A stretch of DNA of 64,000 nt. It comes from Desulfurispora thermophila DSM 16022 (GTDB taxonomy: Bacteria; Bacillota; Desulfotomaculia; Desulfotomaculales; Desulfurisporaceae). The notes under the pieces were generated by a model that was not told the origin of the DNA, made no database searches, and worked only from the letters and a program-made list of their open reading frames with translations. Every line of letters starts with the position of its first letter. Within the stretch, counting starts at the first letter, position 1. The stretch lies in NCBI RefSeq assembly GCF_000376385.1, contig NZ_AQWN01000012.1, positions 1 through 64,000 on the forward strand, in the 5' to 3' direction. The position numbers were made by a program, and so were the translations under genes. Below, in pieces: positions 20,116 through 43,528 of this stretch.

Positions 20116-20141
20116 TATATATTTACATTTTATGTGCAAAG

Positions 20142-20846: not shown

Positions 20847-20851
20847 AAAAC

Positions 20852-20877: not shown

Positions 20878-20902
20878 TGGCTTTTTCGGTTACCTGGCAG
20901 GT

Positions 20903-21106
20903 TTAAAGAATGCGCACATTGGCCGCCTGCGGGCCGCGGTTGCCGCTGACCACGTCAAACTGCACCGCTTGCCCTTCTTCCAGAGTCTTGAAGCCGTCAC
21001 CCTGGATGGCCGAGAAGTGCACGAAAACGTCGTGACCGTCATTGCTCTCGATAAAACCGTAACCTTTTTCCGCGCTGAACCATTTTACTTTTCCTTGCAT
21101 GTTCAA
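20903..21106 (-). CDS. Cold-shock domain protein
   Basis: The 67-residue protein contains the RNP1-like KGYGFIE and RNP2-like VFVHFS motifs of the CspA family, and begins MQGKVKWFS (after an extra MN). These proteins bind single-stranded nucleic acid and melt mRNA structure. The untranslated leader from its promoter (21227-21254) is about 110 nt, as is common for cold-shock genes, and may mediate temperature control. It converges on mazF. Confidence 0.96.
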
Positions 21107-21226
21107 TGCCCCCCGTTAGTTTTTTTGATTAAAAAGCGGATCACCTAACAGTATACCTTTAAACCGAACCTGCTAATCAGGGGGCGCAAGATATCCTGGC
21201 ATTTCCTTCTTTTTAATACTCATCCA

Positions 21227-21254
21227 AGTATAGCACACCTGGCCGAAAAAGCAA
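21227..21254 (-). promoter_or_regulatory. Putative promoter of the cold-shock gene
   Basis: On the minus strand TTGCTT (21249-21254), a 16-nt spacer and TATACT (21227-21232). It gives a leader of about 110 nt. Confidence 0.55.
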
Positions 21255-22566: not shown

Positions 22567-23496
22567 ATGCATTCAGCGGTTTTATACCCCGAGGAATACC
22601 TGGCCCAGGGCAACATGGGCCGGCACGAAACCTTTACCCCGCGTTACGGCTGGCTGGTCAAGGGCTGCCGGGCCGTGCAGGAGGACCCGCATATCTTCCG
22701 GGCCCCCGACGCCATCGAACACCTGGGGGTGGGCAAAAACATGGTGGTCGCCATACGCTTCTGGTGCCTGTGCTGTAAACTGATTCAGCCGGGCAGCGGC
22801 GGCGCCTGCCAGCTCACAGAGCTGGCGCAAAAGCTATTCACCGGTCCCGCCGCCTACGACCCCTACCTGGAGGACGAGGGTACCCTCTGGCTGCTGCACT
22901 GGCAGATCTTCCTGCCCCGGCTGGAAGCCGTAAGCTGGCCCCTGGCCTTTAACAAATGTCAGTTAACCAGTTTTGATACCAGGCAGCTGGCCTGGATGCT
23001 GTATCAGGCCGGACAAAAATATGAACGCTGGCAGGGAATATCCCCCACCACCTGGGAGCGCGACGCTTCCTGCCTGCTGCGCATGTACGCCGATGACCGG
23101 GCGGCCGGAGATATCGACTGCCCCTTCACCCGGCTGGGCCTGCTCCAGCGGGTGCCGGGAAGCAACCAGTTTGCCTTTCACACCGGGGAAAAACCCGGCC
23201 TGCCCCCGCTCATCTTTGCCGCGGCCTGCTTTTCCTACATGCAGCACTACAGCGGGCAGGGCGTGCGCACTATCACCCTGCAAAAACTGAGCTACGACTT
23301 CAACTCCCCCGGTGTGGTCTTTAAAATACCCGAGAGTGCGGCCGGCAGTCTGCTGGAACAGGCTGCAGAGATGATGCCCCTGTTCTCCCTGGAACATGTG
23401 GCCGGAAATGTCCAGTTACACCTGCGGGAAAAGAATCTCACACCTGAACACCTCTACTGGTTGGCTTTAGAAGAATATTACAAGGAGTCAATCTGA
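22567..23496 (+). CDS. sspB: DUF4007 protein, SspB-like
   Basis: The 309-residue protein shows the DUF4007 layout: HETFTPRYGWLVKG (about residues 20-33), LGVGKNMVVAIRFWCL (about 53-68), LTELAQKLF, then YDPYLEDEGTLWLLHW and the PLAFNK strand. In the SspABCD system the DUF4007 protein SspB is reported as the nickase that prepares DNA for single-strand sulfur incorporation. The start at ATG 22567 is set by AAGGAG nine bases upstream and by where similarity begins. The SspC-like gene follows with no gap (TGA then ATG). The assignment rests on the family pattern plus its neighbours. Confidence 0.78.
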   Translation: MHSAVLYPEEYLAQGNMGRHETFTPRYGWLVKGCRAVQEDPHIFRAPDAIEHLGVGKNMVVAIRFWCLCCKLIQPGSGGACQLTELAQKLFTGPAAYDPYLEDEGTLWLLHWQIFLPRLEAVSWPLAFNKCQLTSFDTRQLAWMLYQAGQKYERWQGISPTTWERDASCLLRMYADDRAAGDIDCPFTRLGLLQRVPGSNQFAFHTGEKPGLPPLIFAAACFSYMQHYSGQGVRTITLQKLSYDFNSPGVVFKIPESAAGSLLEQAAEMMPLFSLEHVAGNVQLHLREKNLTPEHLYWLALEEYYKESI

Positions 23497-26400
23497 ATGT
23501 CGCAGAATGTAGATTTGCTCAGCCAATACATTCATCCCGGAGGGGCGGCAACCCGTTCCGTGCACATAGAGCGGGACAGAGATGCTTTCACTTTGCTGCA
23601 AAACTACCAGCCGGGTCCGGCCGGCGCGCAGGTGATCGGCCGCCTGGCCACTGCCCTGCAGGGAGAAAAAATAAGCGCCTGGTCGCTCACCGGTCCCTAC
23701 GGCATGGGCAAATCTGCCCTGCTGAGCTTTTTGCTGGCTCTCTGTGGCCCTGCGGCCAGCAAATCCAGCCGCCTGGCCTGGCAGCGGCTGCGGGCGGTGT
23801 GTCCGGCCCTGGCGGAGCAGTTGCAACTGGGTCTAGAAAACGCTGCCGGACGGGGCGGCCTTTACACCATAGCTGTTACCGCTGGCTATGAACCTTTGAG
23901 CGCTACCCTGCAACGGGGTTTGCAGCAGGCGCATACTGACCGACAAACTACCGCCGCACCGGCCGCTTTGCTGGAAAACTACCGGCAGTTGCCAGAGCGG
24001 GCCGGTCGCCCCCTTTTGCTGGTGATCGACGAATTTGGTAAAAACCTGGAATACCTTTCCTACCATCCGGATCGGGGTGACCTTTTTATTCTGCAGCAAC
24101 TGGCCGAAAGCCCCGGTATATATGTAATAGTTTGCCTGCACCAGGCTTTTGAAGAATACGCCGCCGCTCTTTCCACCGCCCAGCGACGGGAGTGGGCCAA
24201 AATTCAGGGCCGCTTTGAGGACATTTCCTTTGTGGAAAACAATGATCATTTACTCCTGCTCATGCGCCGCGCCCTGCAGAAAAACCTGCCGCCACTGCTG
24301 GCAGATAGAGTGCGGCAGTGGGCCCGCCGGGCGGCCGAACAGGCCCGCCGTTTTGCTTCTCACCTGCCCGCTTTGCAGGACGAGGATATTTTATACCAGC
24401 TTTATCCTTTGCAGCCCCTGACAGCACTGGCCCTGGCCGAGCTGTGCCGCCGTCTGGCCCAGTACAGCCGCACCCTTTTTTCCTTTTTGGGCAGCGGACA
24501 CCAGCTGGCCCTGCCCGCCATATTGAGCCGCCTGATCCTGCCCGCCGCCGGGCCGCTACCCGCCCTGGGGCTGGATGCGCTCTACGACTATTTTATCGGC
24601 AGCACCTCCCTGCCCTATCTGGACCGGCCAGAAGCCCGGCGCTGGCTGGAAATTCAAGATATGATCGACAGTGCTGGCGACCTGCCTCCCCTGGAGCAAA
24701 CCCTGCTGAAAACCATTGGCCTGCTCAATTTGTTGGGCGGTGGTGCCGTTTGTCCGGCCAGTCCTGAGGCCATTATATCCCTGGTGGAACTATCCGGTCA
24801 GGCTGATGCAGGTCAAACAATGGAAGCACTGCAAAAGTTGACCGCTGAGGGCAAGCTGCTTTATCGCCGCTATGCCGGGGAATATCGTCTCTGGGAAGGT
24901 AGCGATTTCGATATTGCCAGTGCCCTGCGCCAGCAAAAGGAGAGTCTGGCTCTGCAGCCCCTGGAGCAAATATTGAACCAGTACCTACCCCTTTCGCCCC
25001 TGGTGGCTGCCCGCCATGCTCTGGAAAAGGGCACTGTGCGCTCATTTGAGCGGCGCTGGGTGGATGTGGAGAACGTAAATGAAGAGCTGGTCCCGGCCAG
25101 AGGATACGACGGTCTGTTGCTGTACTGCTACGGCCTGGCCGTAGATCCACCCGCGGTGCCCGCCCGCTGCCGGGATGGAAGGCCCCTGCTGGTGGCCTAT
25201 GCCCCGGTGAAGAATGCTTTGAAGGAAAAGGCATTGGAGATCAGCGCCCTGAAGGTACTGCTGGCGGAACGGGAAGAGCTGGCCCATGATGCGGTGGCCC
25301 GGCGGGAAGTAAAATATCGCCTGCAGGTTGCGGAAACCGCTTTTCGCACTCTGGTTACCAGGGTTTACGCTCCGGGTTCGCCCCATGTACAATGGCTGAG
25401 CGACGGTCAGCCGGTGACCCTGCACAGCAGCCGGGAACTGGGCCGGGAGCTTTCCCGCCTTTGCGATGAGGTTTACAAAAGTTGTCCGCACATTAAAAAC
25501 GAGATGATCAATTACGACAAGCTGTCCAGCGCTGTGGCCAGGGCCCGCCGCGAACTGTTGGAAGCCATGGCCGAAAAAGCTGAACAGGAAAACCTGGGCC
25601 TTGGGGGCTTTGGCCCCGAGGTGGCCCTGTACCGTTCGTTGCTACTTTGCACTGGCCTGCATATTCGGCAGCCGTCCCAGGAGCAATGGGTACTGGTTTT
25701 GCCCGGTACAGACCCCAGCCTTTACCCTCTGTGGCAGGAGCTGGACCGCCTGCTGGCTGCTGCGCCGGAGGGAATCAATGCAGCGGCTGTGCTGGAGCAG
25801 TTGCATGAGCCACCCTTCGGTCTGCGCCAGGGACCGGCTGCGGTTTTGCTAGGTCATTATTTATTGGTAAAGGCCGATGAAATTGCTGTTTTTCAGGAGA
25901 AAATCTACCAGCCATATCTCAGCGGGGCGACCCTCTCTTTGCTCAGCAAAAGGCCCGATTTGTTCCTGCTGAAAAAAATTGCTGTGAGCGATCTGCAGCG
26001 CAGCGTTTTTGCCGCCTACCGGAATATGCTGCAAAAGGCCAGCATTGCCGGTGCCCGGGGATTGCGCAATCAGTCCCTGCTCACAGTGGTGACGCCGCTG
26101 GTGCAATTCGCCCGGGGGCTTTCCGGTTATGCCCGCCAGACCCGGCAGGTTTCCCCCGCTGCCCGGCGGGTGCTGCTGGCCCTGCAAAATGCCACCGACC
26201 CGCTGGATTTGCTCTTTCAGGAATTGCCCGCCGCGCTGCACATTGACCTGACAGACGGCAGCGCGGAAACAACAGCCGCACTGCAACAGCGACTGCTGGC
26301 GGCTCTGCAGGAACTGGCCCGGGCTGATGAAATATTGCAACAAAAAGTGCAGGATCTGCTCTTGCAAACCTGGCCGGCAAAAAATTTGCAGCAGCTTTAT

Positions 26401-26844
26401 GATATAATGAAGGAAAAAGCTGCCGGTCTGGTGGATTTTTGCCGCGATCCGGAACTAAAACCTTTGCTGGTGGCCATGCTCCGGACGGCGGAAACTCCGG
26501 AAATATGGGCCCGGGGTATTGCCGGCGCTGTGCTGAAAAAGCCTCTGGACAGCTGGCAGGATAGTGATTTGCTGCTCTTTGCCGAAATGCTGCCCAACCT
26601 GGCGGCACGGCTGGAGGAACTGGAACTGCTGCGGGCCGGAGCCCGGGCCGGTAGTTCCCAACAGGTATTGCTCACCTTAAGTACTCCTACCGGTAAGCGG
26701 CACCGGTTTGTTTCCGCCGGCGAAACGATGGATGGCGATGTCCGGCACCGGGTGGCCGAAATAATGGCTCTGCCGCCGGAAAAGGCCCGGGCCGTGCTGC
26801 TGGCTCTGGCCGAGCAGATCATGCAAACAGAAAGTGGTGATTGA
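23497..26844 (+). CDS. sspC: Large P-loop ATPase, SspC-like
   Basis: The 1115-residue ATPase has Walker A GPYGMGKS at 66-73 and a Walker B-like LLLVIDEFGKNLEYLS (about 173-188). A long helical C-terminal half (about 550-1115) has no motif I can name. Its place between SspB- and SspD-like genes matches SspC, the ATPase of the single-strand phosphorothioation machinery. It also resembles BREX-type BrxC/PglY ATPases in size and motif spacing, but BREX partners are absent. The sspB stop abuts its ATG, and its 3' end overlaps sspD. The last gene of the island shares its DEFG-x-x-LE signature. Confidence 0.68.
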   Translation: MSQNVDLLSQYIHPGGAATRSVHIERDRDAFTLLQNYQPGPAGAQVIGRLATALQGEKISAWSLTGPYGMGKSALLSFLLALCGPAASKSSRLAWQRLRAVCPALAEQLQLGLENAAGRGGLYTIAVTAGYEPLSATLQRGLQQAHTDRQTTAAPAALLENYRQLPERAGRPLLLVIDEFGKNLEYLSYHPDRGDLFILQQLAESPGIYVIVCLHQAFEEYAAALSTAQRREWAKIQGRFEDISFVENNDHLLLLMRRALQKNLPPLLADRVRQWARRAAEQARRFASHLPALQDEDILYQLYPLQPLTALALAELCRRLAQYSRTLFSFLGSGHQLALPAILSRLILPAAGPLPALGLDALYDYFIGSTSLPYLDRPEARRWLEIQDMIDSAGDLPPLEQTLLKTIGLLNLLGGGAVCPASPEAIISLVELSGQADAGQTMEALQKLTAEGKLLYRRYAGEYRLWEGSDFDIASALRQQKESLALQPLEQILNQYLPLSPLVAARHALEKGTVRSFERRWVDVENVNEELVPARGYDGLLLYCYGLAVDPPAVPARCRDGRPLLVAYAPVKNALKEKALEISALKVLLAEREELAHDAVARREVKYRLQVAETAFRTLVTRVYAPGSPHVQWLSDGQPVTLHSSRELGRELSRLCDEVYKSCPHIKNEMINYDKLSSAVARARRELLEAMAEKAEQENLGLGGFGPEVALYRSLLLCTGLHIRQPSQEQWVLVLPGTDPSLYPLWQELDRLLAAAPEGINAAAVLEQLHEPPFGLRQGPAAVLLGHYLLVKADEIAVFQEKIYQPYLSGATLSLLSKRPDLFLLKKIAVSDLQRSVFAAYRNMLQKASIAGARGLRNQSLLTVVTPLVQFARGLSGYARQTRQVSPAARRVLLALQNATDPLDLLFQELPAALHIDLTDGSAETTAALQQRLLAALQELARADEILQQKVQDLLLQTWPAKNLQQLYDIMKEKAAGLVDFCRDPELKPLLVAMLRTAETPEIWARGIAGAVLKKPLDSWQDSDLLLFAEMLPNLAARLEELELLRAGARAGSSQQVLLTLSTPTGKRHRFVSAGETMDGDVRHRVAEIMALPPEKARAVLLALAEQIMQTESGD

Positions 26845-27682
26845 GTTGTCGAAAAACCCTCCCCGCACCCGCCATATCCTGGCCCTTTCCGGGGGCAAAG
26901 ACAGCGCGGCCCTGGCCGTGTATATGCGGGAAAAATATCCCCATCTGCCCCTGGAGTATGTTTTTACCGACAGCGGTTGTGAACTGCCCGAGACCTACGA
27001 GTATCTGGATCGCATCCGGGCCGTGCTGAATATTGAGATTACTGTGATCAGGCCGGAGAAAAGCTGGGAAAACTACTGGTCGCTGGTTAAGGTAAAAAAG
27101 ACACCGGCTGGTGTTTTCCCTTATCTGCCTTCTCCCAAACAGCGCTGGTGTACTGAGGTTTTGAAATTAATTCCTTATGAAAAGTGGATAGAGAGTAGTT
27201 ATCCTGGTTGTACTATTGTTAGTTACGTAGGATTACGTGCAGATGAAAAAAGAGAAAGAAAAGGCTTAATTTCGGGCAATAAGAATATTGTTACTCATTT
27301 CCCTTTTATAGAGGATGGCTTAACGTATGAAGATATAAGTTGCTTACTAGAAAAATCAGGGCTTGGCTTCCCTGCTTACTATAAATGGAGAAAGCGTTCC
27401 GGCTGCTACTTTTGTTTTTACCAAACCAAGCGGGAATGGCTGGGGCTTTATGAACATCATCCCGAGCTTTTTTTTAAAGCTATGAGTTATGAAACAGTAA
27501 TACCTGAAGCCGGGGTACGTTTTACATGGTGTGATGATATGAGTTTGAATGAACTGTTGAAAAGAAGGGACGAGATAATGAATCAACCTCTTGCCGGTGA
27601 TATTGAATTAAGGCCAGTAGAAAGGCTCTCCTGTATTTTAGATGGTGTTTTGGTGGAAAGAGGGGCATTACAATGGGCATAG
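26834..27682 (+). CDS. sspD: PAPS-reductase-like PP-loop protein, SspD/DndC-like
   Basis: This member of the phosphoadenosine-phosphosulfate-reductase/ATP-pyrophosphatase family has 282 residues. The PP-loop SGGKDS is at 19-24, followed by FTDSGCELPET (44-54), RWCTEVLK (104-111), YVGLRADEKR (131-140) and a C-terminal SGCYFCFYQTKREW (189-202). Cys106, Cys191 and Cys194 could bind metal or an Fe-S cluster, as in DndC. In Ssp and Dnd systems this protein activates the DNA backbone for sulfur incorporation. A GTG at 26834 is the likely start. From about 27150 the base composition becomes clearly AT-rich and stays so into the next gene. Confidence 0.8.
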   Translation: MVIELSKNPPRTRHILALSGGKDSAALAVYMREKYPHLPLEYVFTDSGCELPETYEYLDRIRAVLNIEITVIRPEKSWENYWSLVKVKKTPAGVFPYLPSPKQRWCTEVLKLIPYEKWIESSYPGCTIVSYVGLRADEKRERKGLISGNKNIVTHFPFIEDGLTYEDISCLLEKSGLGFPAYYKWRKRSGCYFCFYQTKREWLGLYEHHPELFFKAMSYETVIPEAGVRFTWCDDMSLNELLKRRDEIMNQPLAGDIELRPVERLSCILDGVLVERGALQWA

Positions 27683-30174
27683 ATGATTTTTTAACAGAAA
27701 TGGACATGCAATTAAAAAGGGGTAGTTTTAAGCCGCACAAGCTGATATTGATATTAGCCGTGCTGGACTTACTTAAGGAAAACCCGGTCAATAAAATTTA
27801 CTATGATGAAAGATTAAGACAAAGATTTACTTTTTATTTCCAAATATTCGCTGATGAAGGTGATCGAAATAGGCCATACAATCCCTTTTTTCACTTGCAA
27901 AATGATAGATTCTGGAAGATAGTTCCAATAAAAGGACGAGAAGGCCATTTTGCAGCAATGAAGAAAATTGGAGGGCCTGGTGAGCTGATCCAGAATGTTT
28001 CCTACGCATACTTAGATGAACCAGTATTATGGGAATTTTTGGACCCTGACAGGGCGGAAATAATTAGAAGCAAAGTAATTAGTATCTTGATGAAATATAA
28101 GGAGAAATGCTTAGCTAACAAAAAAACTGATGTGCCATTAAGTAGCAATCAGGATGATATTACCTCTAACAATACTTACAAATCGACTCCGCTTTTTGAC
28201 ACCCCGCTTATGACAGAATTCCCTCACATAATAACATCGCCTTCCCATCAGGCTGCACAATCAATCCATTCACAAAACAATATCCCTCATGATCTTGACA
28301 TCCTATCACTTCCAGCATACGAACAAAGCTTTTACAGCCAGTGGGAAACCAGCACTTCCGGCCTGCCCGGTCAGCCCGCAGCCATTATGGCGGAAAGGGA
28401 CGGTGAATTTATGCGCAATGAATTTGTGGATTATTTGAATACCCTGAGCAATACTACAGCGGCCAATGAAAATGCCCTGGCAGAAAGCCAGCTGAACAGC
28501 CGCTTTTTTTCCCGGGTACGGGTAGTGCATCCTCTGGAAAGTTTTATAACTGAACAACTGATGAATGGCTGTGGCCGGGTGGTGCTAACCGGTCATGCCG
28601 GCGATGGCAAAACCACCCTGGCCTTTGCCGTGTTGCAAAAGCTGGGCCTGACGGTGCGGCAACTGAAGTGGAGGCAGGAGTTTCCCGCACAGCGCCTGGT
28701 GGTAATCAAGGATATGAGTGAACTGCCGGTGGAACAGCGGGGCCAGGTGATGCAGGAACTCTGGCAGGAAGAGGAGTGGCGCTATCTGGTGGTATCCAAT
28801 ACCGGTACACTGCTGGAGGCGGTAGGCTGGCTGGAAAAAAATCTGCCGCAATATGGTTTAAAGAAGAAATTGCTGGATGGTCTGCTGGCGGATGGGCCGT
28901 ATAGGCTGGCCGAACGAATAATGATCATCAATGCCGGGAGTATCATCAATATTGATCCGGCCCTGGAAGTATTAAAACGCATGCTGGAGCCGCAAAACTG
29001 GTTTGATTGCCAGCAGTGCATCCATGGTCAGCACTGTCCTGTTTTCTACAATGTACGGCTTTTGCAGCAGGGCTGGGACACGGTGAGGCAGCGCCTCTGG
29101 CTGCTTTACCGCCATCTGTATGAATACGGCTGTCGGTTGACCATGCGCCAGATGGTGGCCCATCTGGCCTATGCCCTGACCGGCGGTACCGATTGTCGGC
29201 AGGTAGCGGGGATGGTGCTAAATTCGCACCGGGCAGCTTTGCGGGGGAGGCTTTTTTTCAACCGCTTTTTTGGGGACGACGGCCAAAAGGAGGATGGTGC
29301 GGCCGGCCAGCTGTACGCGGTGCGCCGGCTGAGGCAGGCCGGTTACGGACAGATTCTGCAGCCGGCCCTGGAACAGCGCCTCTGGCTTACCGAAGACCGG
29401 AGCTGGACCGATTATCCCCTGGCGGATGAACTGGGCCGGGAGATTGTAGATACCTGTACAAAAAGCTACAACAGCCGGGAAAAAGCTGCCCTGCGGCGGC
29501 AGATGCGCCGCCTGCTGTATTTCTGGGGCACCCGCTGGGAGGAAGCAGGTGGCGAAGGGGAGCGGGCGGCGGAGGATTTTATCGCTAAATTTCTGGATTC
29601 GCCGGCCTTGTTTGATTATCTGCAGATGATGTCCGAAAAATCCGATCATTACCGGGAGAAAATCCGGGAATATAAGAGAAAAGTGGGACATGTGCTCCAG
29701 GAGTATTTCGCCGGTTCCTGCCTGGCGGAAAATGAAAAGCGGGAAGATATATACATTCCTTTGAGCCGGCCGGACCGGCCGGTGCCGGTGCTCTTTTTGC
29801 TGGCCCGCTATTTTCTGGATGATTTTGACCTGGAACTGCGGAAAACCTTTGAGGTGGGAAAATATAAGCGACGGGCTCTTTTCCTTTTTCTTAAAGATAA
29901 GCCGGAATTATGCCTGGAACTCAGTTTACCCTTTATGGATTATGTGGCCCGCCGGCACCGTGGAGAGATGACGGCCGATTTAAGTGCTTTTTATGCCAAC
30001 CGCCTGCAGCGCTTCAAGGCCCAGTTGATCAAGCATTATCCTCATCTGCAGCGCTGGGAGCTGTTTAGCGATGATGGCCGGAAAGGCAGTCTGATGTACC
30101 TGAAGGCCGGGCGAAGCAGGCGAATTAAACTGGAATTTTATGCCGGTGAACTGGAGGTGTCTTTCTATGAATGA
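27673..30174 (+). CDS. Putative phosphorothioate-sensing ATPase (SBD-like domain + DptF/SspF-like P-loop)
   Basis: The 833-residue protein appears to have three parts. Residues 1-145 resemble the sulfur-binding domain of the phosphorothioate-dependent nuclease ScoMcrA: KPHKLILILAVLDLL (20-34), a charged helix with FTFYF, then PYNPFFHLQNDRFW (68-81). Residues 150-240 form a Ser/Thr/Asn/Gln-rich linker. The rest is an ATPase with Walker A GHAGDGKTT (307-315) and a possible metal site CQQCIHGQHC (446-455), a layout recalling DptF. ATG at 27673 overlaps sspD by 10 bp. I infer a restriction-module ATPase that reads backbone sulfur; the domain match is by eye and needs a profile search. Confidence 0.6.
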   Translation: MGIDDFLTEMDMQLKRGSFKPHKLILILAVLDLLKENPVNKIYYDERLRQRFTFYFQIFADEGDRNRPYNPFFHLQNDRFWKIVPIKGREGHFAAMKKIGGPGELIQNVSYAYLDEPVLWEFLDPDRAEIIRSKVISILMKYKEKCLANKKTDVPLSSNQDDITSNNTYKSTPLFDTPLMTEFPHIITSPSHQAAQSIHSQNNIPHDLDILSLPAYEQSFYSQWETSTSGLPGQPAAIMAERDGEFMRNEFVDYLNTLSNTTAANENALAESQLNSRFFSRVRVVHPLESFITEQLMNGCGRVVLTGHAGDGKTTLAFAVLQKLGLTVRQLKWRQEFPAQRLVVIKDMSELPVEQRGQVMQELWQEEEWRYLVVSNTGTLLEAVGWLEKNLPQYGLKKKLLDGLLADGPYRLAERIMIINAGSIINIDPALEVLKRMLEPQNWFDCQQCIHGQHCPVFYNVRLLQQGWDTVRQRLWLLYRHLYEYGCRLTMRQMVAHLAYALTGGTDCRQVAGMVLNSHRAALRGRLFFNRFFGDDGQKEDGAAGQLYAVRRLRQAGYGQILQPALEQRLWLTEDRSWTDYPLADELGREIVDTCTKSYNSREKAALRRQMRRLLYFWGTRWEEAGGEGERAAEDFIAKFLDSPALFDYLQMMSEKSDHYREKIREYKRKVGHVLQEYFAGSCLAENEKREDIYIPLSRPDRPVPVLFLLARYFLDDFDLELRKTFEVGKYKRRALFLFLKDKPELCLELSLPFMDYVARRHRGEMTADLSAFYANRLQRFKAQLIKHYPHLQRWELFSDDGRKGSLMYLKAGRSRRIKLEFYAGELEVSFYE

Positions 30175-31891: not shown

Positions 31892-31907
31892 TAAAGGAGC
31901 GTTCGGC

Positions 31908-34900: not shown

Positions 34901-37343
34901 TCTGGAAACGCGTGGTGTGGGAGATTTTCAAAAGGTGTTGCGTGCCGCTCACGCCAGCGGTGTGTGGGTGGTGTGTATTGATCCGGCTATGGACGAATAT
35001 GTGATTACTTCTCTGGAGGATGATGGTAAAAAAAGTCCGGATATTATCGGTTTTGGCACCGGGGTGGGCTCCCACGGTGAGGCCAATTTCACCATTTCCA
35101 CCAGCCTCTTTAAATTGTCCGGTGTGCAGGACAGGATTGCCCGCTGGGTGCGCAAGCTGTTTCCCGGCCAGTTAACCGAAAGCCAGGCCGGGGAAATAGC
35201 CCGGGCTTTTTGCCGGCGCGATCCGGATCAGCGACCGTATTTAAGCGGCCTGTCGCTGATCAAGTCTACCGGACCGGAAAGGTTTTTCCACGAATTTGTG
35301 GCCGGAAGCATGGTACGCCTTATGCTCCAGCAGCAGGCGGAGGAAGATAGTTTTTGTGATGTACTGGTTTCCCTGGATGCTTTTCCCCACTGGTTCAAGC
35401 GGGATGAGCAGCGCCCCGATTTTCTGCACCTGAAAGCTGCTCTGGTCGGCGGCCGGGTGCGGGTGCAGGCCCGTCTACTGGAGTGCAAACTGGGCAGGGA
35501 AAATGAGGAGCATGTGCAAAAAGCCGGGCAGCAGCTGCGGGCAGGCCTTTGTCAGCTGGCGGAGCGGTTTATGCCCTGCCCGCCGGGGGCTATAGCGGGT
35601 GTGCAGGACAGACCGGACCAGCGTTACTGGTGGCTGCAGTTGCACCGGTTGATTGCCAGCCACGGTGTGAGCGGCGAGCAGTACGACAGGGTACTGGCAG
35701 CCCTGGAACTGCTCAGCGAGGGGTATTTTGATCTGGAGTGGCAGGCGGCGGCCTTTGTTTTCTGGACCGACCGGCCGGGGGATGAGATACAGCGCGAGGT
35801 GCTCTGTGAGGTGGAACTGCCGGGCCAGAATGTGCTGACTGTACCGGTATTTCGGTGTGGCCGGGATTTTATCCAGCGCCTTTGTTTGCGCAATGACCAG
35901 CCGGTGGAGCTGCTGGATTGGCCGGTTTGCCGGTATGTTGGCCGCGAGCTGCCGGCTATAGCGGGAGCGGCTGCTGAAACACCGGCAGATCCCCCTGTTC
36001 TGGAAGATGACGGGGGAAGCGTTTCGCCGGTTTCGGAAGAGGAAGTGCCAGAAACAATATCTCCGGTGCCTTGCGGGGCTGACGAAACGTGGCAGCGGCG
36101 GTGTCTGCCGGATTTGTTGACTGCCCAAACACAAGTGGCGACAGCGGCGGAAGCATTAATCGAGGGCGATGCTGCGGTTCGGTCGGTTGAGGAATGTCAA
36201 CCTGTGCCGCAGCGTATATTGCTGGGGTATGGTGCGGGTGAGCGCCCGGTGTACTGGGAGTTCGGTCACCCGGATTTGCCCAACCGGCACCTGTTGATTT
36301 TCGGCGCTTCGGGTACGGGCAAGACTTATGCCATCCAGTGTTTGCTGGCCGAGCTGGGCCGGCACGGCGCAAACAGCTTGATTGTGGATTACACCAGCGG
36401 CTTTACCAGCGGGCAGCTGAACCCGCTGTTTGTCCAGCATTTTGCGCCCCGCCAGCATGTGGTGCGCCAGCAGCCGCTGGGGATCAACCCATTCCGGCGG
36501 CAGAGGTACGTGGAGGAAGGTATTGAACTGATTGATAATCCAGCTCAGGTGGCCGGGCGGTTGGCGGGCCTGCTGGGCAAGGTTTACCATCTGGGGGAAC
36601 AACAGTATGCAACGCTGTACAATATCATCCAGGAAGGGGTACAGCAGGCCGGAGACGGCTTTACCCTGCCCGGCCTGCTGGAAAAACTGCGGGAGTACAG
36701 TGAAGCCGGGGGACATAATGCCAGCCAGGCTCTTTCGGTTTTTAATAAGATCCGCCCCTTTGTGGATATGAATCCATTGGGGCCGGGGCGCAGCGGCTGG
36801 GAAGAATTGTTCACCGACCGGCAAAACCGCTGTCATGTGATCCAGTTGATCGGCTTTGAAGCCCAGATGGCCCAGTTGATCACCGAATTTGTGCTGCTGG
36901 ATCTGTACTGGTATTACCGTTCCTGCGGCAGTGAAGCCCGGCCCCGCCCGGTGGTGCTGGATGAGGTGCAGAACCTGGACCACAGCGAGGGCGGGTCGCT
37001 TTCCAATATGCTGCGGGAGGGGCGCAAGTTTGGCCTTTCCCTGCTTTTGGCTACCCAGACGCTGAGTAATTTGAAGCAGGAGGAACGCGACCGCCTCTTC
37101 CAGGCCGCCCACAAGCTGTTCTTCCGCCCGGCCGATACCGAGCTGCGTTCCTTTGCCAGCATTATCGCCCAGGCTACCGGCGGGCAGGTGGAAGACTGGG
37201 TGCAGCGGCTGGCCAGCCTGGGTCGGGGTGAGTGCTATTCGCTGGGCTACGCCCGACGAGAAGGCGATGATAAGCTAAGGGCCAATTACTGTGTCAAGAT
37301 CAAAGTGACCTCGCTGAAAAAGCGCCTGACAGGAGAGGATTAA
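31908..37343 (+). CDS. Giant HerA/FtsK-like ATPase, DptH/SspH-like
   Basis: The 1811-residue protein has a large N-terminal region (1 to about 1400) without recognisable motifs. It includes an acidic stretch (EEEMDEEDEDDHPE) near residue 765. The C-terminal HerA-type translocase domain has Walker A FGASGTGKTYAIQ near 1465 and Walker B RPVVLDEVQNLD near 1680. LLLATQTLSNL near 1705 is followed by a terminal arginine-rich segment. Size and C-terminal ATPase match DptH/DndH of phosphorothioation-dependent restriction. The start at 31908 follows AAAGGAG; an ORF from 31875 overlaps the previous gene. The next gene begins one base after its stop. Confidence 0.7.
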   Translation: MYFLLNTVLDWLQRQLDALTGEQQKLVVVLPSWDSGLLLALGQRLRELVAGWPLPIQLRYSVAYRLGQEWRQKGSLAQQQDLAEIRRQGWYNEDDNLTGQRNQLPEDRPLLVVLAGAEHIPDRHSLQDFYHLDQPALWREALAGSTRAWVAEKFARALGQETADGVELASAVLDYLYERGLADLPAISVFLENLDLQPADSGQIACRLLLGSLPALGQPALSGLVLKKISRSAKGGPKAFWRGKCAGYLQQAQQFFSYRSFLSPADREKYLEIIQKLLDHDAALERLESREWRLGVYRTAEELLRAVEQYIAQPAPALADALRRVDFVLISDEILNYKPKKTDMEPPDTDPPPSRGPVRLEGLLPEVFLRAIWLTACEMKKEWKGVRLEDVARIRLQSEVFKHDFVPLQDEEAEGADERAQEFLQHLLGGIDGWLAYGLQLGTSDQELGVEINLCPAGRAAEELTYVYSGASIPRLEFYCAFVHRDGETLQRKFYWPLPDHHPCRLLEALLKWAYEYYQDRASGLPLFYLSGVNSLVGVRQDEEACRLLLRFLQGDPEQKRIVDLLEFTAQPGGEQPGKALKELAFYYQQFIKATYERGLFSALDVRRHSEMEYNNMAGAYLQSLEQCLQSVGTAGKEAMLLLYKAFLVVDSSLYGKPGSVWEKDLPAALVTPLHPVMLEMLHFQFSYLLECLVYLLEKGLSGSREVAFNAASWQRLVELAAVRRALGVVISGQKLEGMGRDFAYLQVLGQAGADDGETDSLDFAEEEMDEEDEDDHPEYLQRGRLAELVKGILLDYQEMHPYAADGLTLAVYAGRSLPQILAGVDEFLRIMVKEREEEAADYYTLQLMVYTRAHSEWTVRRWLRAWQQSWQQGDVGGEGAHWSHCRLTVQYRMVEDKKFIDLEGMLRDNRCDLIFLSEFFMDSESEFYPLEQDFSRLTENYRYFPVLEKVCCRNRGAGSEYKRQRVLTNHRFRRATAHARLVHRLQNPVSPHGQVLLLETRGVGDFQKVLRAAHASGVWVVCIDPAMDEYVITSLEDDGKKSPDIIGFGTGVGSHGEANFTISTSLFKLSGVQDRIARWVRKLFPGQLTESQAGEIARAFCRRDPDQRPYLSGLSLIKSTGPERFFHEFVAGSMVRLMLQQQAEEDSFCDVLVSLDAFPHWFKRDEQRPDFLHLKAALVGGRVRVQARLLECKLGRENEEHVQKAGQQLRAGLCQLAERFMPCPPGAIAGVQDRPDQRYWWLQLHRLIASHGVSGEQYDRVLAALELLSEGYFDLEWQAAAFVFWTDRPGDEIQREVLCEVELPGQNVLTVPVFRCGRDFIQRLCLRNDQPVELLDWPVCRYVGRELPAIAGAAAETPADPPVLEDDGGSVSPVSEEEVPETISPVPCGADETWQRRCLPDLLTAQTQVATAAEALIEGDAAVRSVEECQPVPQRILLGYGAGERPVYWEFGHPDLPNRHLLIFGASGTGKTYAIQCLLAELGRHGANSLIVDYTSGFTSGQLNPLFVQHFAPRQHVVRQQPLGINPFRRQRYVEEGIELIDNPAQVAGRLAGLLGKVYHLGEQQYATLYNIIQEGVQQAGDGFTLPGLLEKLREYSEAGGHNASQALSVFNKIRPFVDMNPLGPGRSGWEELFTDRQNRCHVIQLIGFEAQMAQLITEFVLLDLYWYYRSCGSEARPRPVVLDEVQNLDHSEGGSLSNMLREGRKFGLSLLLATQTLSNLKQEERDRLFQAAHKLFFRPADTELRSFASIIAQATGGQVEDWVQRLASLGRGECYSLGYARREGDDKLRANYCVKIKVTSLKKRLTGED

Positions 37344-37344
37344 G

Positions 37345-38178
37345 GTGAGTGAGCTTTTGCCCATCAATTTTCATAAAACTTTCCTGCCCGAGCGGCGCCT
37401 GCTGGGTGCTTTGCTGGAATACGCCGCTCTGGGCAGGGAGGGCAATTACCAGGAGATAGCCAGGGACACCGGCATACCCATGGGCAAATCTTCGGGCAAG
37501 GTACCGGCCATGCTTGATTATGCCCGCGGCATGGGACTGATCACGCTGGTCCGGGGCGGCGGGCCGGGTCGCAAAAGGCCCCGGCTGACCGGCTTCGGGC
37601 AGGTGGTATACGCTGCGGATCGCTATCTGGGACGTCCCTTTAGCCAGTGGCTGGCGCACATGCACCTGTGTTTGCCCCGGGGGGGAGCGGTGGCCTGGCA
37701 TCTGGTGTTTGTGACCGGGCGCCGGGCGCTGGGCAGCCGTTTTGCGGCTGACCGGGTGGAGCATTATCTGGTGGAACACTTTGGGCCGGGGCGCAGCCGC
37801 ACCGGCCCGCTCCTGCGCACATACCTGGAAGATGCTGCGCTGGGCCGGGCGGGGGTGCTGGTTAGGCAGCAGGATGAGCTGACGCGCCGCCGGGCGCCCC
37901 TGGAAGAGCCTTATGCTCTGCCCTATGCCGCCTTTATTCTGGAGCTGTGGGAGAAATTTTTCCCCGGTCGGGAACAGATTACGGCGGATGAACTGGCAGG
38001 AGAAACCGGCTGGCCGGAGATGTGTTTGTGGTCCCGGGAGGAGCTGGAACAGGCCCTGGAACTGGTGGAACAGACCGGATTTTTTACTCTGGACCGGCAG
38101 CGGCGGCCCTGGATTCTGGAAAGGCGGGCGGTGGCTGCCGATGCCTGGCAGGAGCTGGGCCGGGCCTGGGAGGAATAG
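37345..38178 (+). CDS. Second, divergent DUF4007/SspB-like protein
   Basis: The 277 residues parallel the first DUF4007 protein block by block. FHKTFLPERRLL matches HETFTPRYGWL, GKSSGKVPAMLDYARGMGLI matches GKNMVVAIRFWCLCCKLI, and LTGFGQVVYAADRYLG matches LTELAQKLF...YLED. FSQWLAHMHLCLP and AVAWHLVFV match the LLHW and WPLAFN segments. Identity is low, so this is a distant paralogue recognised by motif order. The start is GTG at 37345 behind AGGAGAGG, one base after the HerA-like gene. It may be a nicking or DNA-recognition partner for the ATPase that follows, mirroring the sspB-sspC pair. Confidence 0.6.
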   Translation: MSELLPINFHKTFLPERRLLGALLEYAALGREGNYQEIARDTGIPMGKSSGKVPAMLDYARGMGLITLVRGGGPGRKRPRLTGFGQVVYAADRYLGRPFSQWLAHMHLCLPRGGAVAWHLVFVTGRRALGSRFAADRVEHYLVEHFGPGRSRTGPLLRTYLEDAALGRAGVLVRQQDELTRRRAPLEEPYALPYAAFILELWEKFFPGREQITADELAGETGWPEMCLWSREELEQALELVEQTGFFTLDRQRRPWILERRAVAADAWQELGRAWEE

Positions 38179-38253
38179 CCCTGCCTCCTGGAGAGAACCA
38201 GAGAAGACAGTCCGACAAGCCCTGGCCGGAGGCTGGAATGAGGAGTGATCGTG

Positions 38254-41200
38254 ATGCGCTGGCAGGATATTGTTGACCTGCGGCAGGATTTGTTATTCAA
38301 CGGGGCGGTAGCATTAAGCTGGCTTGAGGAAAACCCCATGCTGGCTGAAAAGGCGGCACGGCATTTCATTTTCCACGGTCCGAGCGATAGTACGGCCGGG
38401 CTTACCGATACGGCCAGTTTTACCGCCGAGCTGTTGGAACGACTGACCGGTGGAGGAAACGATCCCTTTATGATGGCCGTAGCCGGTTATGGTACGGGTA
38501 AATCCCACCTGGCGGTCACTTTGAGCACGCTGCTGACCGAACCCCGGAGCCAGCTGGCCGGGGAAATTTTGGAACATCTGGAACTGGCCGATCGGGAAAT
38601 GGCTGCCCGGGTGAGGGAGTATCTGGCTGGACTGCCGCAACCTTATCTGGTGGTGGCCATCAATGGCATGCGAGACTTCGATCTGGGTCAGGAAATTATC
38701 CGCCAGGTGCTGCGCACTTTGCAGCGGCTAGGCATCAGTACATCGGTGCTGGAGGAATTGCGGCCCCGCTTCAAGACAGCGATTAATTTTGTGCGGTCTT
38801 TTTATACTCACCTGCAGGAGGATTTTGTGGCCCGGTTTGGTGATGGGTGCACCGAGGGGCAGATTGTATCCCTTTTGCAGGAGCAGGATGAGCTGGCTTT
38901 TCGAGCGGTAAGCGAGATATACAGCCAGAAGATGGGGGCGCCCATTCACACGGTGGGCCAGGAATCGCTGCCTGATTTCATCCGGGTAGTACAGGAGCAT
39001 TACTGCGGCCCCAATCGCCCCTTTGCCGGCCTGTTGATAATATTTGATGAATTTGGCCGCTATCTGGAGTTTGCTGTGCAAAAGCCCCATGTGGCCGGAT
39101 CCGGTGTACTGCAGCAGCTTTTTGAGGCGGTGCAGACCTACGGTCAGCGGGTTTTTCTGTTGCTATTTATTCAGTATGAGCTGCGGGCCTATATTTCCCG
39201 CGTGGCTCCCGAGCTGCGGGATGAGCTGGATCGCTATGTGACCCGCTATGATGCTGTGAGTCGTTACCGTCTTTCCAGCAATCTGGAGACCTTGATCGCC
39301 AGTTTGCTGGCCACAAAGAATGCCGATGAACTGCAGCGGCGGGTGGCGGAAAACCGGGGCGAATATGAAAAGTGTTGGCAGCTGCTGTCCGGGATGCTGC
39401 CGGTGTCTGCTGTTCGCCCCCTCTGGCGAAATCGGGATGATTATCAACGGGTGGTCTGTAAAGGTTGCTGGCCGCTGCATCCGCTTTCCACCTGGCTGTT
39501 GCAGCGCCTGGCGGCGGGCCGGGAACTGCAGCAGCGCTCGGCGGTTACGCTGCTGGTGGAGGCCTACCGCTTTGCAGCGGAGCGGGAACAGCCGCCGACG
39601 GCGCTGCTCCGGCCGGTAGATTTGCTCACCGGGGATCTGCTGGAGGAGTTTGTGGCCAGCGAACGCCTGGGCGGCAGAGGTGCGGCGGCCCAGGCCTACC
39701 AGGAAGTGATACACAAGTATGGGCAGCGTTTTTCGCCCGAGGAGAGCACGGTGCTCAAGGCGGTGCTGCTGGCAACCCGCCTGGGGCTGAAGATAGAGAA
39801 CCGTACCGTTTATCGAGCCCTGCTGGTTCAGTGCTGCGGATTGTCCGAGGAAGATTTGGTGGCAACTCTGGAGGCGCTGGAGGGAGAATACGGGGTTTTA
39901 AGCTGGAATGCGGCTCTGTGCCAGTACGACATTGTGGCCGATGCGGTACCGCGTCAGGAATTTCTGGAACGCTTAAAACAGCGGGCCAAAGGGGTGGGGA
40001 TGCAGCAGCGGGCGGAGATTTTCCGTCGTCAACTGGCCGGCTGGCTGGAGAAGAAGGAATATCTAGTGGATTTTGCCAGGGAAAATAACATTGCCACACC
40101 GGAATTCAGGTACGAGGTGGTTTTTAGCGATATAACCCTGCTAAAGGCCCAGCTGGAGTTTGCCCTGGGCAGCTGGCGGGAAGCGCTGGCGCCAGACAGG
40201 AGCCGGGGTCGGTTGATTTACTGTTATGTGGGACCGGAAAGCCACCTGGAACTGGTGCGGCAGGAGACACAGCGTCAGGTGGACCACCTGCTGGCCGGGG
40301 AGGCGGCTGCCGGCCGCTACGGGGCGCCGCTGGCCGTAGTATTTTTGCCCGACAGTCAGGGCGAGCTGGGCCAGCTGCTGGCCGAGTACTGGGTACTGCA
40401 GGAAGAGATGAGCCCGGAGGAAAGATCCCGCTATGGCCACTTCATCCAGGAACGGCAGACATCCCTGCTGCGGGAGATGGATGACTGCTTTAACCGGCTG
40501 GTGGAATGCCGTCAGTATTTGACCGCTACAGGCGGGATGGTGTGCGGTGGGGAACTTTCCCGGGTGCTGAATAATCTGTTTGCGGATGTCTACCCGGCCC
40601 GCATTCCTTTTCCTTTTGACGGTTTTGAGAAGACTAAAGGCCTGGCGGCGGGAGATTGTGAGACTTTTACCCGGCAGCTTTTCCAGGGCGGTTTAACCAA
40701 AGACTGGATTGCCGCCCTGCCGTCCCGCACAAAAAATCGGGCTACTGAGTTATTTATTAAAACCTGGCAGGCAATGGGCGATACCGGACAGGTGCGGCTG
40801 AAACCGGGCCACCCGGCAGTGCGCCGCCTGTTTGACTGGCTGGACAGCTGGCTGGAAAAGGGCGAGGCGGACATCCCGGCTGCCCTGGACCCGGCAGAAC
40901 AGATGGAAACCGGGACGGTGGAAGGTACTGTTGATGCCGGGGGCGGCGGATTGCTTTCCCTGGGTCGGGTTTTGCGGATTTTTTGTGGTCCGCCTTTTGG
41001 CCTGAACCTGGCTTCGGCCGGGCTGGTGCTGGGGCTTTATTATTGCCGTCGTCAGGACAGCTTGCAGTTGCTGCACAAAGGCCAGCCGCTGAAAACAGCG
41101 GACTGGCTGCACCTGGCCTTTGCCGGCAAATTCCTGGATCTGGCGGTACTGGATGAAACCGGGTTCTGCCGCATTTCCCAGCAGGATGTTTCGGAATGGC

Positions 41201-42585
41201 AAAAATTGCTGGATGAATGGGAAAGTGCCGCAGCGCTGGACGAGCTGCTGCAGATGGAGAAAAAAGCGGAGGCACTGCGGCAAAAGGCAGCGCTGCCGGG
41301 GGAACTGTACTACCGGTTGGAGCTATTAAAGAAAAATAATAACGAACATCGGGCCAGACTGAGAGATTACGAAAGCAGACTGAATAATGCTCTGGAACGC
41401 CTGCAAAAGGGCCGCCAGCATCAGGATGTGAGCCTTATTTCCTGGGCGGCAGCCGACCTGGCCGGGCTGTGCAATCAGGTGGGCAATGATAAAACTTACT
41501 GGGGCCGGCAGCGATGGGAGGAAGTATCCCGCCATTATGCCGGGGCGCGCCTGCTGGTGCAGCAGCTTTTCCCGGCCTGGCTGCCCGGCCAGACCGCCAG
41601 CAGCGAGGTGCAGCTGCAGAAACTGAGGCAAAAGATGAAGCGGGTAAAAGAAAATCTGGAAAATATAGATCTGGACGAAGAAAAGGAACAGCTGGCCCAC
41701 CATGTGCACCAGGTGGAGGAGTATGTGCAGGAACTGGAGAAAATCAAAAAAGTATGTGATGATGTGAGTCAGCTGGCGAGAAAGCCGGTGGACGACCGGG
41801 TAACGGTGGTTACATTGCGGGGCTGGCTGGAGCAGGTGCAGGAGCTGGCCGGGCGGCTGGAGCAGGCCAGAAAACGGTTGAATATTGCCGGGTACCAGAT
41901 TGATGAAGCCAGGCGCCAGCTGGCCGAGTTTCAGAAAAAGTGCCATCAACAGCTGGAGACCATCAGTGAGAGGGCAAAGAGATTATTTAACTTCCAGACA
42001 GTACAGAGCATGACCGACCTGTACGACCTGGCCCGGCAAGCCGCTGCGCTGTGTTATCTCTATAGAGGCAGCCCCAAAGATTTAGAGGATCTGGAACTGG
42101 TGAAACGCCAGGCCGAATTGATGGACGGACACTTCCAGCGTCTGGAGCGGGAACAGGAGCAGCTGGACGATGCAGCGCTGCGCGGGCTGTGCCGGTTGCT
42201 GCTGCAAGAGCTGAACGAGGCATTTGTGGATGATCAGCCGCCCCTGGATGGAGAAATGATCTATGAAAGCATGTTGAATTTACTGCTTTCCGAGCGGCGG
42301 CGGCGGGCAGCGCATTGGCTGGAGCGCCATTTACCGGAGGAGACGCAGATAGGCGCCCTGTCCGCCGAGCGGTGCGCCCGGGCGCTGCAGGTTTTACAGC
42401 AAAGGCCGCCCTATTTGAACTCAGAACAGCTGGAACAGGTGCAGCAGGCTGTGGCGCTTTTACAGCAGCGACTGGACAACCTGGCTGTGGAAGGGCTGCT
42501 GGCCCGCCTGCGGGAAATGCCCCTTCACCAGCAGCGGGCTTTTTGGCAGCGCCTGCAGCAGCTGGCTACAGCGGAGGGGTGGTGA
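38254..42585 (+). CDS. Second SspC/BrxC-like P-loop ATPase with coiled coil
   Basis: This 1443-residue ATPase has Walker A GYGTGKSH (78-85) and Walker B LLIIFDEFGRYLEF (260-273). The latter closely parallels VIDEFGKNLEYLS in the upstream SspC-like protein. After it come helical repeats and a charged coiled-coil region (about 1110-1310, rich in KxxxE and LExxRK patterns). I start at ATG 38254 because AGGAG ends nine bases upstream; GTG at 38245 would overlap that site. It is the last gene of the island, 75 bp after the DUF4007-like gene. The role is unknown. The B/C-like pair could be a second modification unit, a restriction effector or a regulator. Confidence 0.62.
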   Translation: MRWQDIVDLRQDLLFNGAVALSWLEENPMLAEKAARHFIFHGPSDSTAGLTDTASFTAELLERLTGGGNDPFMMAVAGYGTGKSHLAVTLSTLLTEPRSQLAGEILEHLELADREMAARVREYLAGLPQPYLVVAINGMRDFDLGQEIIRQVLRTLQRLGISTSVLEELRPRFKTAINFVRSFYTHLQEDFVARFGDGCTEGQIVSLLQEQDELAFRAVSEIYSQKMGAPIHTVGQESLPDFIRVVQEHYCGPNRPFAGLLIIFDEFGRYLEFAVQKPHVAGSGVLQQLFEAVQTYGQRVFLLLFIQYELRAYISRVAPELRDELDRYVTRYDAVSRYRLSSNLETLIASLLATKNADELQRRVAENRGEYEKCWQLLSGMLPVSAVRPLWRNRDDYQRVVCKGCWPLHPLSTWLLQRLAAGRELQQRSAVTLLVEAYRFAAEREQPPTALLRPVDLLTGDLLEEFVASERLGGRGAAAQAYQEVIHKYGQRFSPEESTVLKAVLLATRLGLKIENRTVYRALLVQCCGLSEEDLVATLEALEGEYGVLSWNAALCQYDIVADAVPRQEFLERLKQRAKGVGMQQRAEIFRRQLAGWLEKKEYLVDFARENNIATPEFRYEVVFSDITLLKAQLEFALGSWREALAPDRSRGRLIYCYVGPESHLELVRQETQRQVDHLLAGEAAAGRYGAPLAVVFLPDSQGELGQLLAEYWVLQEEMSPEERSRYGHFIQERQTSLLREMDDCFNRLVECRQYLTATGGMVCGGELSRVLNNLFADVYPARIPFPFDGFEKTKGLAAGDCETFTRQLFQGGLTKDWIAALPSRTKNRATELFIKTWQAMGDTGQVRLKPGHPAVRRLFDWLDSWLEKGEADIPAALDPAEQMETGTVEGTVDAGGGGLLSLGRVLRIFCGPPFGLNLASAGLVLGLYYCRRQDSLQLLHKGQPLKTADWLHLAFAGKFLDLAVLDETGFCRISQQDVSEWQKLLDEWESAAALDELLQMEKKAEALRQKAALPGELYYRLELLKKNNNEHRARLRDYESRLNNALERLQKGRQHQDVSLISWAAADLAGLCNQVGNDKTYWGRQRWEEVSRHYAGARLLVQQLFPAWLPGQTASSEVQLQKLRQKMKRVKENLENIDLDEEKEQLAHHVHQVEEYVQELEKIKKVCDDVSQLARKPVDDRVTVVTLRGWLEQVQELAGRLEQARKRLNIAGYQIDEARRQLAEFQKKCHQQLETISERAKRLFNFQTVQSMTDLYDLARQAAALCYLYRGSPKDLEDLELVKRQAELMDGHFQRLEREQEQLDDAALRGLCRLLLQELNEAFVDDQPPLDGEMIYESMLNLLLSERRRRAAHWLERHLPEETQIGALSAERCARALQVLQQRPPYLNSEQLEQVQQAVALLQQRLDNLAVEGLLARLREMPLHQQRAFWQRLQQLATAEGW

Positions 42586-42865: not shown

Positions 42866-43528
42866 ATGGTGGAAGGTTCCCGAAGGGAGAACATCCATCC
42901 TATTCTAAAGAGCTACCTGCCCCTGGTGGAGGGGCTGGGCCGGACTCTGGGCCGACACGTGGAGGTGGTGCTGCACGATGTTTCCCGCACCGAGGCCAGC
43001 ATCATTGCCATAGCCAACGGCCATGTCACCGGGCGGGGGGTGGGTTCGCCGGCCACCGACCTGCTGATGGAATACATTGCTGCCGATGCTGAGCGGCGGG
43101 TGGACAGCGTGCTAAATTATCTGACCACCGCCCGGGACGGCCGGAAGCTCAAGTCTTCTACTTTTCTGATCCGGGATGAAAAGGAGCAGGTAATTGGTGC
43201 CCTGTGCATTAATATGGATTTGACCCATTTGGATATGGCCAAAAAATTCCTGGAAGAGCTGGCCTGGACCGAGACCGACCAGTCGCCGGAGAGCTTTCCG
43301 GAAAATGTGGGTGATTTTCTCCAGATCATGCTTAAAAAAGCGCTATCTCTGGTGGACAGGCCGGTTACCCTGCTCAGCAAGGAAGAAAAGGTGAAAGTGG
43401 TGCAGTATCTGGACAAAAACAAGGTGTTCAATATCAAGGGTGCGGTGGACATAGTGGCCCGGGAACTGGGTGTTTCCCGGTATACAATATACAATTATTT
43501 AGACGAAATCAATGCCGGCAATATTTAA
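42866..43528 (+). CDS. YheO-like PAS/HTH transcriptional regulator
   Basis: The 220-residue protein has an N-terminal YheO-type PAS-like domain (ILKSYLPLVEGLGRTLGRHVEVVLHD, IANGHVTGRGVGSPATD). The C-terminal helix-turn-helix is IKGAVDIVARELGVSRYTIYNYL. Related regulators (e.g. DauR) control amino-acid catabolic genes. It sits 122 bp upstream of tryptophanase on the same strand and probably regulates it; the effector is unknown. Confidence 0.85.
   Translation: MVEGSRRENIHPILKSYLPLVEGLGRTLGRHVEVVLHDVSRTEASIIAIANGHVTGRGVGSPATDLLMEYIAADAERRVDSVLNYLTTARDGRKLKSSTFLIRDEKEQVIGALCINMDLTHLDMAKKFLEELAWTETDQSPESFPENVGDFLQIMLKKALSLVDRPVTLLSKEEKVKVVQYLDKNKVFNIKGAVDIVARELGVSRYTIYNYLDEINAGNI

Follow-up and report, generated by a model that had tools for sequence, protein, structure and literature searches.

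A phosphorothioation island of Desulfurispora thermophila in which a second SspB/SspC-like pair is linked to a diverged SspFGH restriction module

Why should a phosphorothioate (PT) defence island carry relatives of its SspB and SspC genes twice? The question is raised by a 64,000-nt stretch of the genome of Desulfurispora thermophila DSM 16022 (contig NZ_AQWN01000012.1, positions 1 to 64,000; hereafter the window), in which eight genes, all on the plus strand, span 22567-42585 in the order B1-C1-D-F-G-H-B2-C2 (Table 1). Adjoining genes overlap or lie 0-66 nt apart, the gap between B2 and C2 becoming 75 nt if C2 starts at 38254; a GTG start at 38245 is also possible. This arrangement agrees with an earlier note on the same DNA, which had read the genes as one string and one system. 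The published SspFGH cassette has three genes, each of them essential (Wang et al., mBio 2021, PMC8092258; this and the other published systems are taken as described in the available portions of the texts cited). We propose, with a probability of roughly 0.6, that the island consists of an SspBCD PT modification arm and a five-gene restriction arm, F-G-H-B2-C2, in which B2 and C2 serve recognition and loading. That the pair belongs to the restriction arm is very probable from the sequences and their comparison across genomes, and its role in recognition and loading, which we infer from homology, fixed linkage and co-inheritance, is about evenly poised. The modification and cutting activities themselves would follow from the gene families.

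The two pairs were compared by profile and by predicted fold. In profile searches B2 scored 28.7 bits with DUF4007, above the cut-off of 27 (E value 9e-7), and matched the SspB model with an E value of 5e-4, and C2 matched the SspC model at 72 bits (E value 7e-21). Profiles built from related loci aligned over 263 columns for B1 and B2 (hhalign 98.9%, E value 3e-17) and over 804 columns for C1 and C2 (hhalign 99.95%, E value 8e-38). An AlphaFold model of B2, with a predicted local distance difference test (pLDDT) score of 96.2, superposed on the SspB structure 6juf with a Z score of 20.7 over 270 residues, the next structure other than SspB being FokI at 7.4; the suggestion that this 277-residue protein is DUF4007-like thus withstood a structural check. 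The C2 model (residues 1-1111, pLDDT 86.6, predicted template modelling score 0.52) was closest to the BREX (bacteriophage exclusion) ATPase BrxC of Acinetobacter, with a Z score of 19.5 over 472 residues, followed by Orc/Cdc6 proteins at 12-13.5. Walker A and the DEFG-x-x-LE Walker B are present in both C1 and C2, as had been noticed before, and both motifs of C2 are kept in 62-63 of 63 aligned sequences. On these models, B2 is a protein of the SspB/DUF4007 fold and C2 an SspC/BrxC-type AAA+ ATPase of the Orc/Cdc6-BrxC type, and the sequence profiles indicate that B2-C2 is homologous to B1-C1 over most of its length, beyond what chance would give. The earlier reading of two SspB/SspC-like pairs is confirmed by the same profile alignments and fold matches. 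B2 retains 10 of the 31 aligned positions that are near-invariant in SspB (reference set, 42 B1 sequences). It has a near-invariant set of its own in 81 sequences, including T-G-I-P-x-G ... G-K-V, which argues that B2 is under its own constraint and is not decaying.

We then asked whether the pair stands behind FGH elsewhere, and scanned genome contigs with a C2 alignment, which yielded 78 loci. These were recorded under Bacillota, Deltaproteobacteria/Desulfobacter and kin, Chloroflexi, Bacteroidota, Verrucomicrobia and Acidobacteria, with further loci in Cloacimonadota, Spirochaeta, Thiocapsa and others. Counting loci cut by contig ends as not assessable (for B2 this applies to L068), B2 lay upstream of C2 in all 77 assessable loci, at a spacing of at most 300 bp in 76. 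H was upstream of the pair in 73 of 74, no more than 300 bp from B2 in 68, and G and F were found in 50 of 51 and 48 of 48, respectively. The earlier note had proposed a survey of whether the pair recurs behind SspFGH-like genes in other genomes, and in these loci it does. No C2 relative was confirmed in viral contigs; among plasmids, five records had a partial C2 match and none covered 80%.

The remaining five of the 73 H-bearing loci (L091, L097 and the Thiocapsa loci) have 1.8-8.4 kb of other genes at the H-B2 junction, which thus serves as a point of insertion. In L062, L064 and L088 the insert measures 7.4-8.4 kb; that of L064 encodes three BrxC_BrxD-type ATPases, a DEAD-box helicase and a 269-amino-acid protein without a match, and the open reading frames (ORFs) of L062 are similar in length. 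L091 and L097 carry 1.8 kb of other genes, which in L091 encode an AAA_21 ATPase and a DUF4276 protein. H is broken in L084, and C2 is split into several ORFs in L037, L041, L057, L074, L082 and L094; these loci, together with L099 (see below), apparently reflect decay or sequencing breaks.

The modification arm accompanies the restriction genes in most of these loci. Among the 38 loci with more than 2 kb of available sequence ahead of the F start, SspD was present in 37, and SspB, SspC and SspD occurred together in 35. The three exceptions to the full set were L031 (a C1 fragment, no B1), L046 (C1 cut by the contig end) and L084 (no B, C or D seen). A search for SspD in 50 of the 78 genomes found it in 44. 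The arm takes one of two orders: B-C-D where SspD is short, and D-B-C where SspD has about 550-590 residues. L030 reverses the arms, its D-B-C set (14463-20636) lying downstream of C2. F is often preceded by a gene coding for about 375-400 residues; the copy in L075 encodes a class V aminotransferase, the class to which SspA belongs. The D. thermophila genome (2.82 Mb, 99.6% complete) has six matches to this aminotransferase class, one of which may supply the cysteine desulfurase; none of them is on the contig of the window. In the window, SspB, SspC and SspD stand in one operon by their PADLOC models (281 bits, 1088 bits and E value 8e-89).

With which arm has the pair been inherited? Pairwise distances were analyzed in 33 loci, only those in which all eight genes were long enough. 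Correlations of distances were 0.87-0.94 within F-G-H-B2-C2, 0.76-0.90 within B-C-D and 0.71-0.83 across the two groups, and in the 23 loci with a short SspD they were 0.82-0.95 within the five restriction genes and 0.33-0.65 across. In partial Mantel tests B2 correlated with FGH given BCD at 0.84 (p 0.001) and with BCD given FGH at 0.02 (p 0.38); for C2 the corresponding values were 0.88 (p 0.001) and -0.03 (p 0.66). These correlations suggest joint movement of the last five genes and a semi-independent BCD arm. The earlier note had asked whether the last two genes move independently of the first six: their linkage to the three genes before them stands, and it is the first three, B, C and D, that are partly free.

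The same data bear on the idea that B2-C2 is a second modification unit, sharing SspD with B1-C1 and marking another motif, which the earlier note had listed first. The homology to SspB and SspC and the intact ATPase motifs fit such a unit, as does a partial correlation of 0.39 between C2 and BCD (p 0.028) in the 10 loci with a long SspD. Across the whole 33-locus set, however, B2 and C2 track FGH and not BCD. SspD has a single match in the genome, the D of the cassette; B2 keeps fewer than half of the SspB near-invariants counted above; and the pair was never seen apart from FGH except as a broken remnant (L099). We consider a second-specificity modifier most improbable.

Trees of B2 and C2 (18 rows each, by a quick method, taking every second locus of the 33-locus set together with the window and G361, a gammaproteobacterial locus described below) placed B2 and C2 each on one side of a branch, apart from all sampled B1 or C1, with a Shimodaira-Hasegawa approximate likelihood ratio test value of 100. 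The B1 and C1 sequences included some from loci without the pair or without FGH. As far as sequence relationships can tell, B2-C2 is an old pair fixed in the restriction module and not a recent local duplication.

A survey that started from G instead of C2 gave a similar result and also divided FGH itself. Searching 398 and 395 genomes of two phyla produced 12 strong G matches (>540 bits), and the pair stood after H in all 10 that could be read past H; the contigs of the other two, G602 and G766, end inside H, and G736, with a G match of 31 bits, was left unclassed. The 10 loci include the window, L036, L040 and L056 of the C2 set, and G662. The samples overlap, in that L024 and L025 are the loci of G056, a genome from the order of D. 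thermophila, and of G066, and G662 is apparently L030, the two having identical G. A search of 369 gammaproteobacterial genomes with one PADLOC SspG model turned up four loci. Of these, G361 carries the full set of eight genes, the pair included; G467 has B-C-D-F-G-H of the window's class and lacks the pair; and in G404 and G282 FGH is convergent with BCD and there is no pair. Nor was a pair found within the stretch examined in G585 or in a second G118 locus (C11). In G467 a TIGR04096 phosphorothioation-associated putative methyltransferase (586 bits; L150 6088-8673, minus strand) stands directly after H, in the place of the pair.

The PADLOC SspF, SspG and SspH models matched F, G and H of G404 at 755, 682 and 2577 bits, and those of the window at 130, 53 and 50 bits, that is, weakly. 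The scan covered G404, G585 and G118-C11, each with strong matches to F, G or H, and, in the window's class, the window's own three proteins. On a tree of G the four loci of the published class fell on one side (100/100) and 39 pair-bearing rows together with G467 on the other, G585 and G118-C11 forming long branches whose exact placement is unsure. Of the 4 loci of the published class (G404, G282, G585 and G118-C11) none has the pair, and of the 12 in the window's class 11 have it, which upholds the earlier observation that this layout differs from published SspFGH cassettes. By sequence, then, SspFGH falls into two classes, the published three-gene class and a diverged class with F-G-H-B2-C2.

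The main rival to a role in recognition and loading is that B2-C2 is a brake or licensing unit, which would keep FGH inactive on host or PT-marked DNA and release it on invaders. A brake would explain the same linkage and the same co-inheritance with FGH, and it would be useful, since unrestrained SspFGH is toxic in cells that lack PT (PMC8092258). The published class, on the other hand, works without the pair, G467 retains FGH without it, and a conserved ATPase combined with a DNA-binding fold would exceed the needs of a simple inhibitor. We think a brake unlikely. In broader terms the pair may be a regulator, the last of the three options in the earlier note.

In H, the P, E, C and K of a P-D ... 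E-C-K motif, which we take to be of the PD-(D/E)xK type, are present in 56 of 56 aligned proteins and the D in 55, and the C-terminus is HerA-type, matching DndH with an E value of 7e-54 (181 bits). No nuclease was recognised in B2 or C2, the fold search having barely covered C2 past residue 561 and the model ending at 1111. Of the three options in the earlier note, an arm built from modification parts comes closest to what was found, but the recognisable nuclease motif lies in H and not in the pair. G gave no profile-profile signal of homology to B1 or B2.

The start of F in the window resembles the sulphur-binding domain (SBD) SBDHga1 (8h0l, E value 8e-19). An H-K pair is present in 29 of 30 aligned rows of its pocket and a proline in 30 of 30. 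The sulphur cavity of ScoMcrA has an H-R pair and a proline, with lysine replacing arginine in most homologues (PMC6224610). From a reading of the motifs, the H-K pair and proline of F apparently correspond to that cavity. Among loci with a short SspD and an available F start, the SBD was found on F in 27 of 30, the others being L040, L052 and L098; a search of F from G404 and G282 gave no SBD match. The match of F to nSTAND3 was weak (E value 0.015). In L014 F is 1517 residues long (7438-11991), its P-loop part being preceded by the SBD, a NERD nuclease-related domain and two domains of the protein kinase type.

We suggest the following course of events. SspB1-C1-D with a cysteine desulfurase would put sulphur into DNA. 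B2, a winged-helix DNA binder of the SspB fold, and C2, an Orc/Cdc6-BrxC-like AAA+ ATPase, would bind or scan DNA and load the F-G-H nuclease-translocase or hand the DNA over to it. The SBD of F would check the backbone for sulphur, and H would translocate and cut DNA that lacks it. On this view a copy of the site-finder of the modification arm would work for the restriction arm. In loci whose F is without an SBD, another part may read PT, or it may be read in some other way.

Several observations count against this account. The SBD occurs in none of the 12 F proteins of a long-SspD Clostridia group (F of about 560-610 residues), so that PT cannot be read there in the way proposed. SspFGH of the published three-gene kind gives protection with no such pair, which is thus dispensable for some FGH, and G467, of the window's own class, lacks it. 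L099 (9549-10813) holds a broken C-terminal part of B2 and part of C2 with no H within 9.5 kb, and in the long-SspD loci C2 retains its partial correlation with BCD. From linkage alone a loader and a brake look the same. No co-variation of B1 with B2 was found beyond that with FGH (0.06), and this lends no support to a target site common to the two. A further step would be that the restriction arm arose by duplication of the modifier's recognition machinery and that B2-C2 still finds the sites of B1-C1, with both arms interrogating the same sites by paralogous machines and the SBD of F deciding by sulphur. This step we offer tentatively and regard as rather doubtful; if true, the reader and the writer of self share an ancestor.

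Among known systems the island is most readily placed with PT defence of the SspBCD-SspFGH type, as a variant with an ATPase and reader pair of BREX/Ssp type in its restriction arm. That defence is marked by single-stranded PT in DNA and by restriction of phage without the mark. Like SspABCD-SspFGH (PMC8092258) the island sets an SspB-C-D arm beside F with a Walker A, G, and H with an FtsK/HerA-like C-terminus; unlike it, F, G and H are strongly diverged, F carries an SBD, and B2-C2 follow H. Its H is like DndH at the C-terminus, and the NERD and kinase domains of the long F of L014 recall DndF (PMC10853773), but unlike DndFGH the three genes are paired with SspBCD and B2-C2. With type 4 BREX (PMC12839542) it shares a BrxC-type ATPase, a DUF4007 protein and a PAPS (3'-phosphoadenosine-5'-phosphosulphate)-reductase-type SspD/BrxP, whereas F-G-H take the place of PglZ and BrxL, neither of which was matched in a search limited to the eight cassette genes. 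Capture systems built on HerA/FtsK have Orc/Cdc6 ATPases and SspB-like proteins (NAR 2024, PMC10853773; NAR 2026, PMC12839542), and the island resembles them in its HerA motor, Orc/Cdc6-BrxC-type ATPase and DUF4007/SspB-like protein; it differs in being joined to an SspBCD arm and in having no PglZ, TGT or GNAT match in the cassette. The BRC system places PglZ, TGT and GNAT beside HerA, DUF4007, an Orc/Cdc6 ATPase and a STAND NTPase (NAR 2026, PMC12839542). Of these parts the island has HerA, DUF4007 and a BrxC-like ATPase, with F only weakly like nSTAND3 and PglZ, TGT and GNAT unmatched in the cassette. Pbe-type restriction was considered and rejected, as it has a different gene set (PMC6459918, PMC10853773) and no Pbe-named model was among the window's matches.

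These likenesses might suggest that B2-C2 is a separate BREX-like effector placed behind FGH, blocking phage replication alone. The closest fold of C2 is BrxC, and type 4 BREX combines a BrxC ATPase with DUF4007 (PMC12839542), but no PglZ or BrxL match exists among the eight genes, and in 73 of 74 loci the pair keeps its place after H, with distances locked to FGH, which favours one complex or pathway. An independent effector is therefore hardly probable.

Across many bacterial groups, then, a second copy of the marking machine's site-finder genes travels with the cutting genes, and not with the marking genes. This splits SspFGH in two, one class, present in many phyla, having a five-gene restriction arm; the window's own FGH copy is matched weakly by the PADLOC models. 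It becomes testable by what means such an arm locates its targets and leaves the host unharmed although only about 10-15% of motifs carry the PT mark, a figure from other strains (PMC8092258). PT restriction would also be tied to BREX-type BrxC ATPases and to HerA capture systems. We found no account of a second SspB/SspC pair with SspFGH in a literature search that had supplements and subscription papers outside its scope; the available text of PMC12839542 contains neither "SspF" nor "SspH", and that of PMC10853773 does not contain "SspFGH".

Table 1. Genes and motifs of the island in window coordinates, with the matches on which each assignment is based
Feature	Position	Strand	Evidence
B1: SspB (DUF4007), modification arm	22567..23496	+	DUF4007 E 5.5e-77; SspB 281 bits; 6juf E 3e-38
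C1: SspC ATPase, modification arm	23497..26844	+	SspC 1088 bits (PADLOC)
D: SspD, PAPS reductase type	26834..27682	+	SspD E 8e-89 (PADLOC)
F: SspF-like NTPase with N-terminal sulphur-binding domain	27673..30174	+	SspF 130 bits, residues 249-538
Putative SBD of F, residues 8-123	27694..28041	+	8h0l (SBDHga1) E 8e-19; NF045808 E 2e-7
G: SspG-like	30140..31891	+	SspG 53 bits, C-terminus only; position conserved in related loci
H: SspH-like nuclease-translocase	31875..37343	+	HerA/DUF87 E 6e-9; DndH 181 bits; SspH 50 bits
PD...ECK nuclease motif of H, residues 1181-1205	35415..35489	+	alignment of 56 H proteins
Walker A, HerA part of H, residues 1477-1484	36303..36326	+	53-56/56 at conserved motif positions
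B2: second DUF4007 protein, 277 aa, probable restriction arm	37345..38178	+	DUF4007 E 9e-7; SspB fold; B2 clade
C2: second SspC/BrxC-type AAA+ ATPase, 1443 aa, probable restriction arm	38245..42585 (or from 38254)	+	SspC E 7e-21; BrxC fold; C2 clade
Walker A of C2, GYGTGKSH	38485..38508	+	63/63
Walker B of C2, FDEFG	39043..39057	+	62-63/63

A scan for regulatory sites gave 12 promoter-like sites against 8.9 expected and 36 terminator-like sites against 24, and was not used as evidence. The 5' end of a 16S rRNA gene lies at 1-211 (minus strand), at what is also the contig edge. Upstream of the cassette, at 20849-21244 on the minus strand, there is an Rfam match to the cspA thermoregulator (83 bits, the gathering score being 78), and directly after the cassette, at 42866-43528 on the plus strand, the window encodes a YheO-like regulator with PAS and helix-turn-helix domains.

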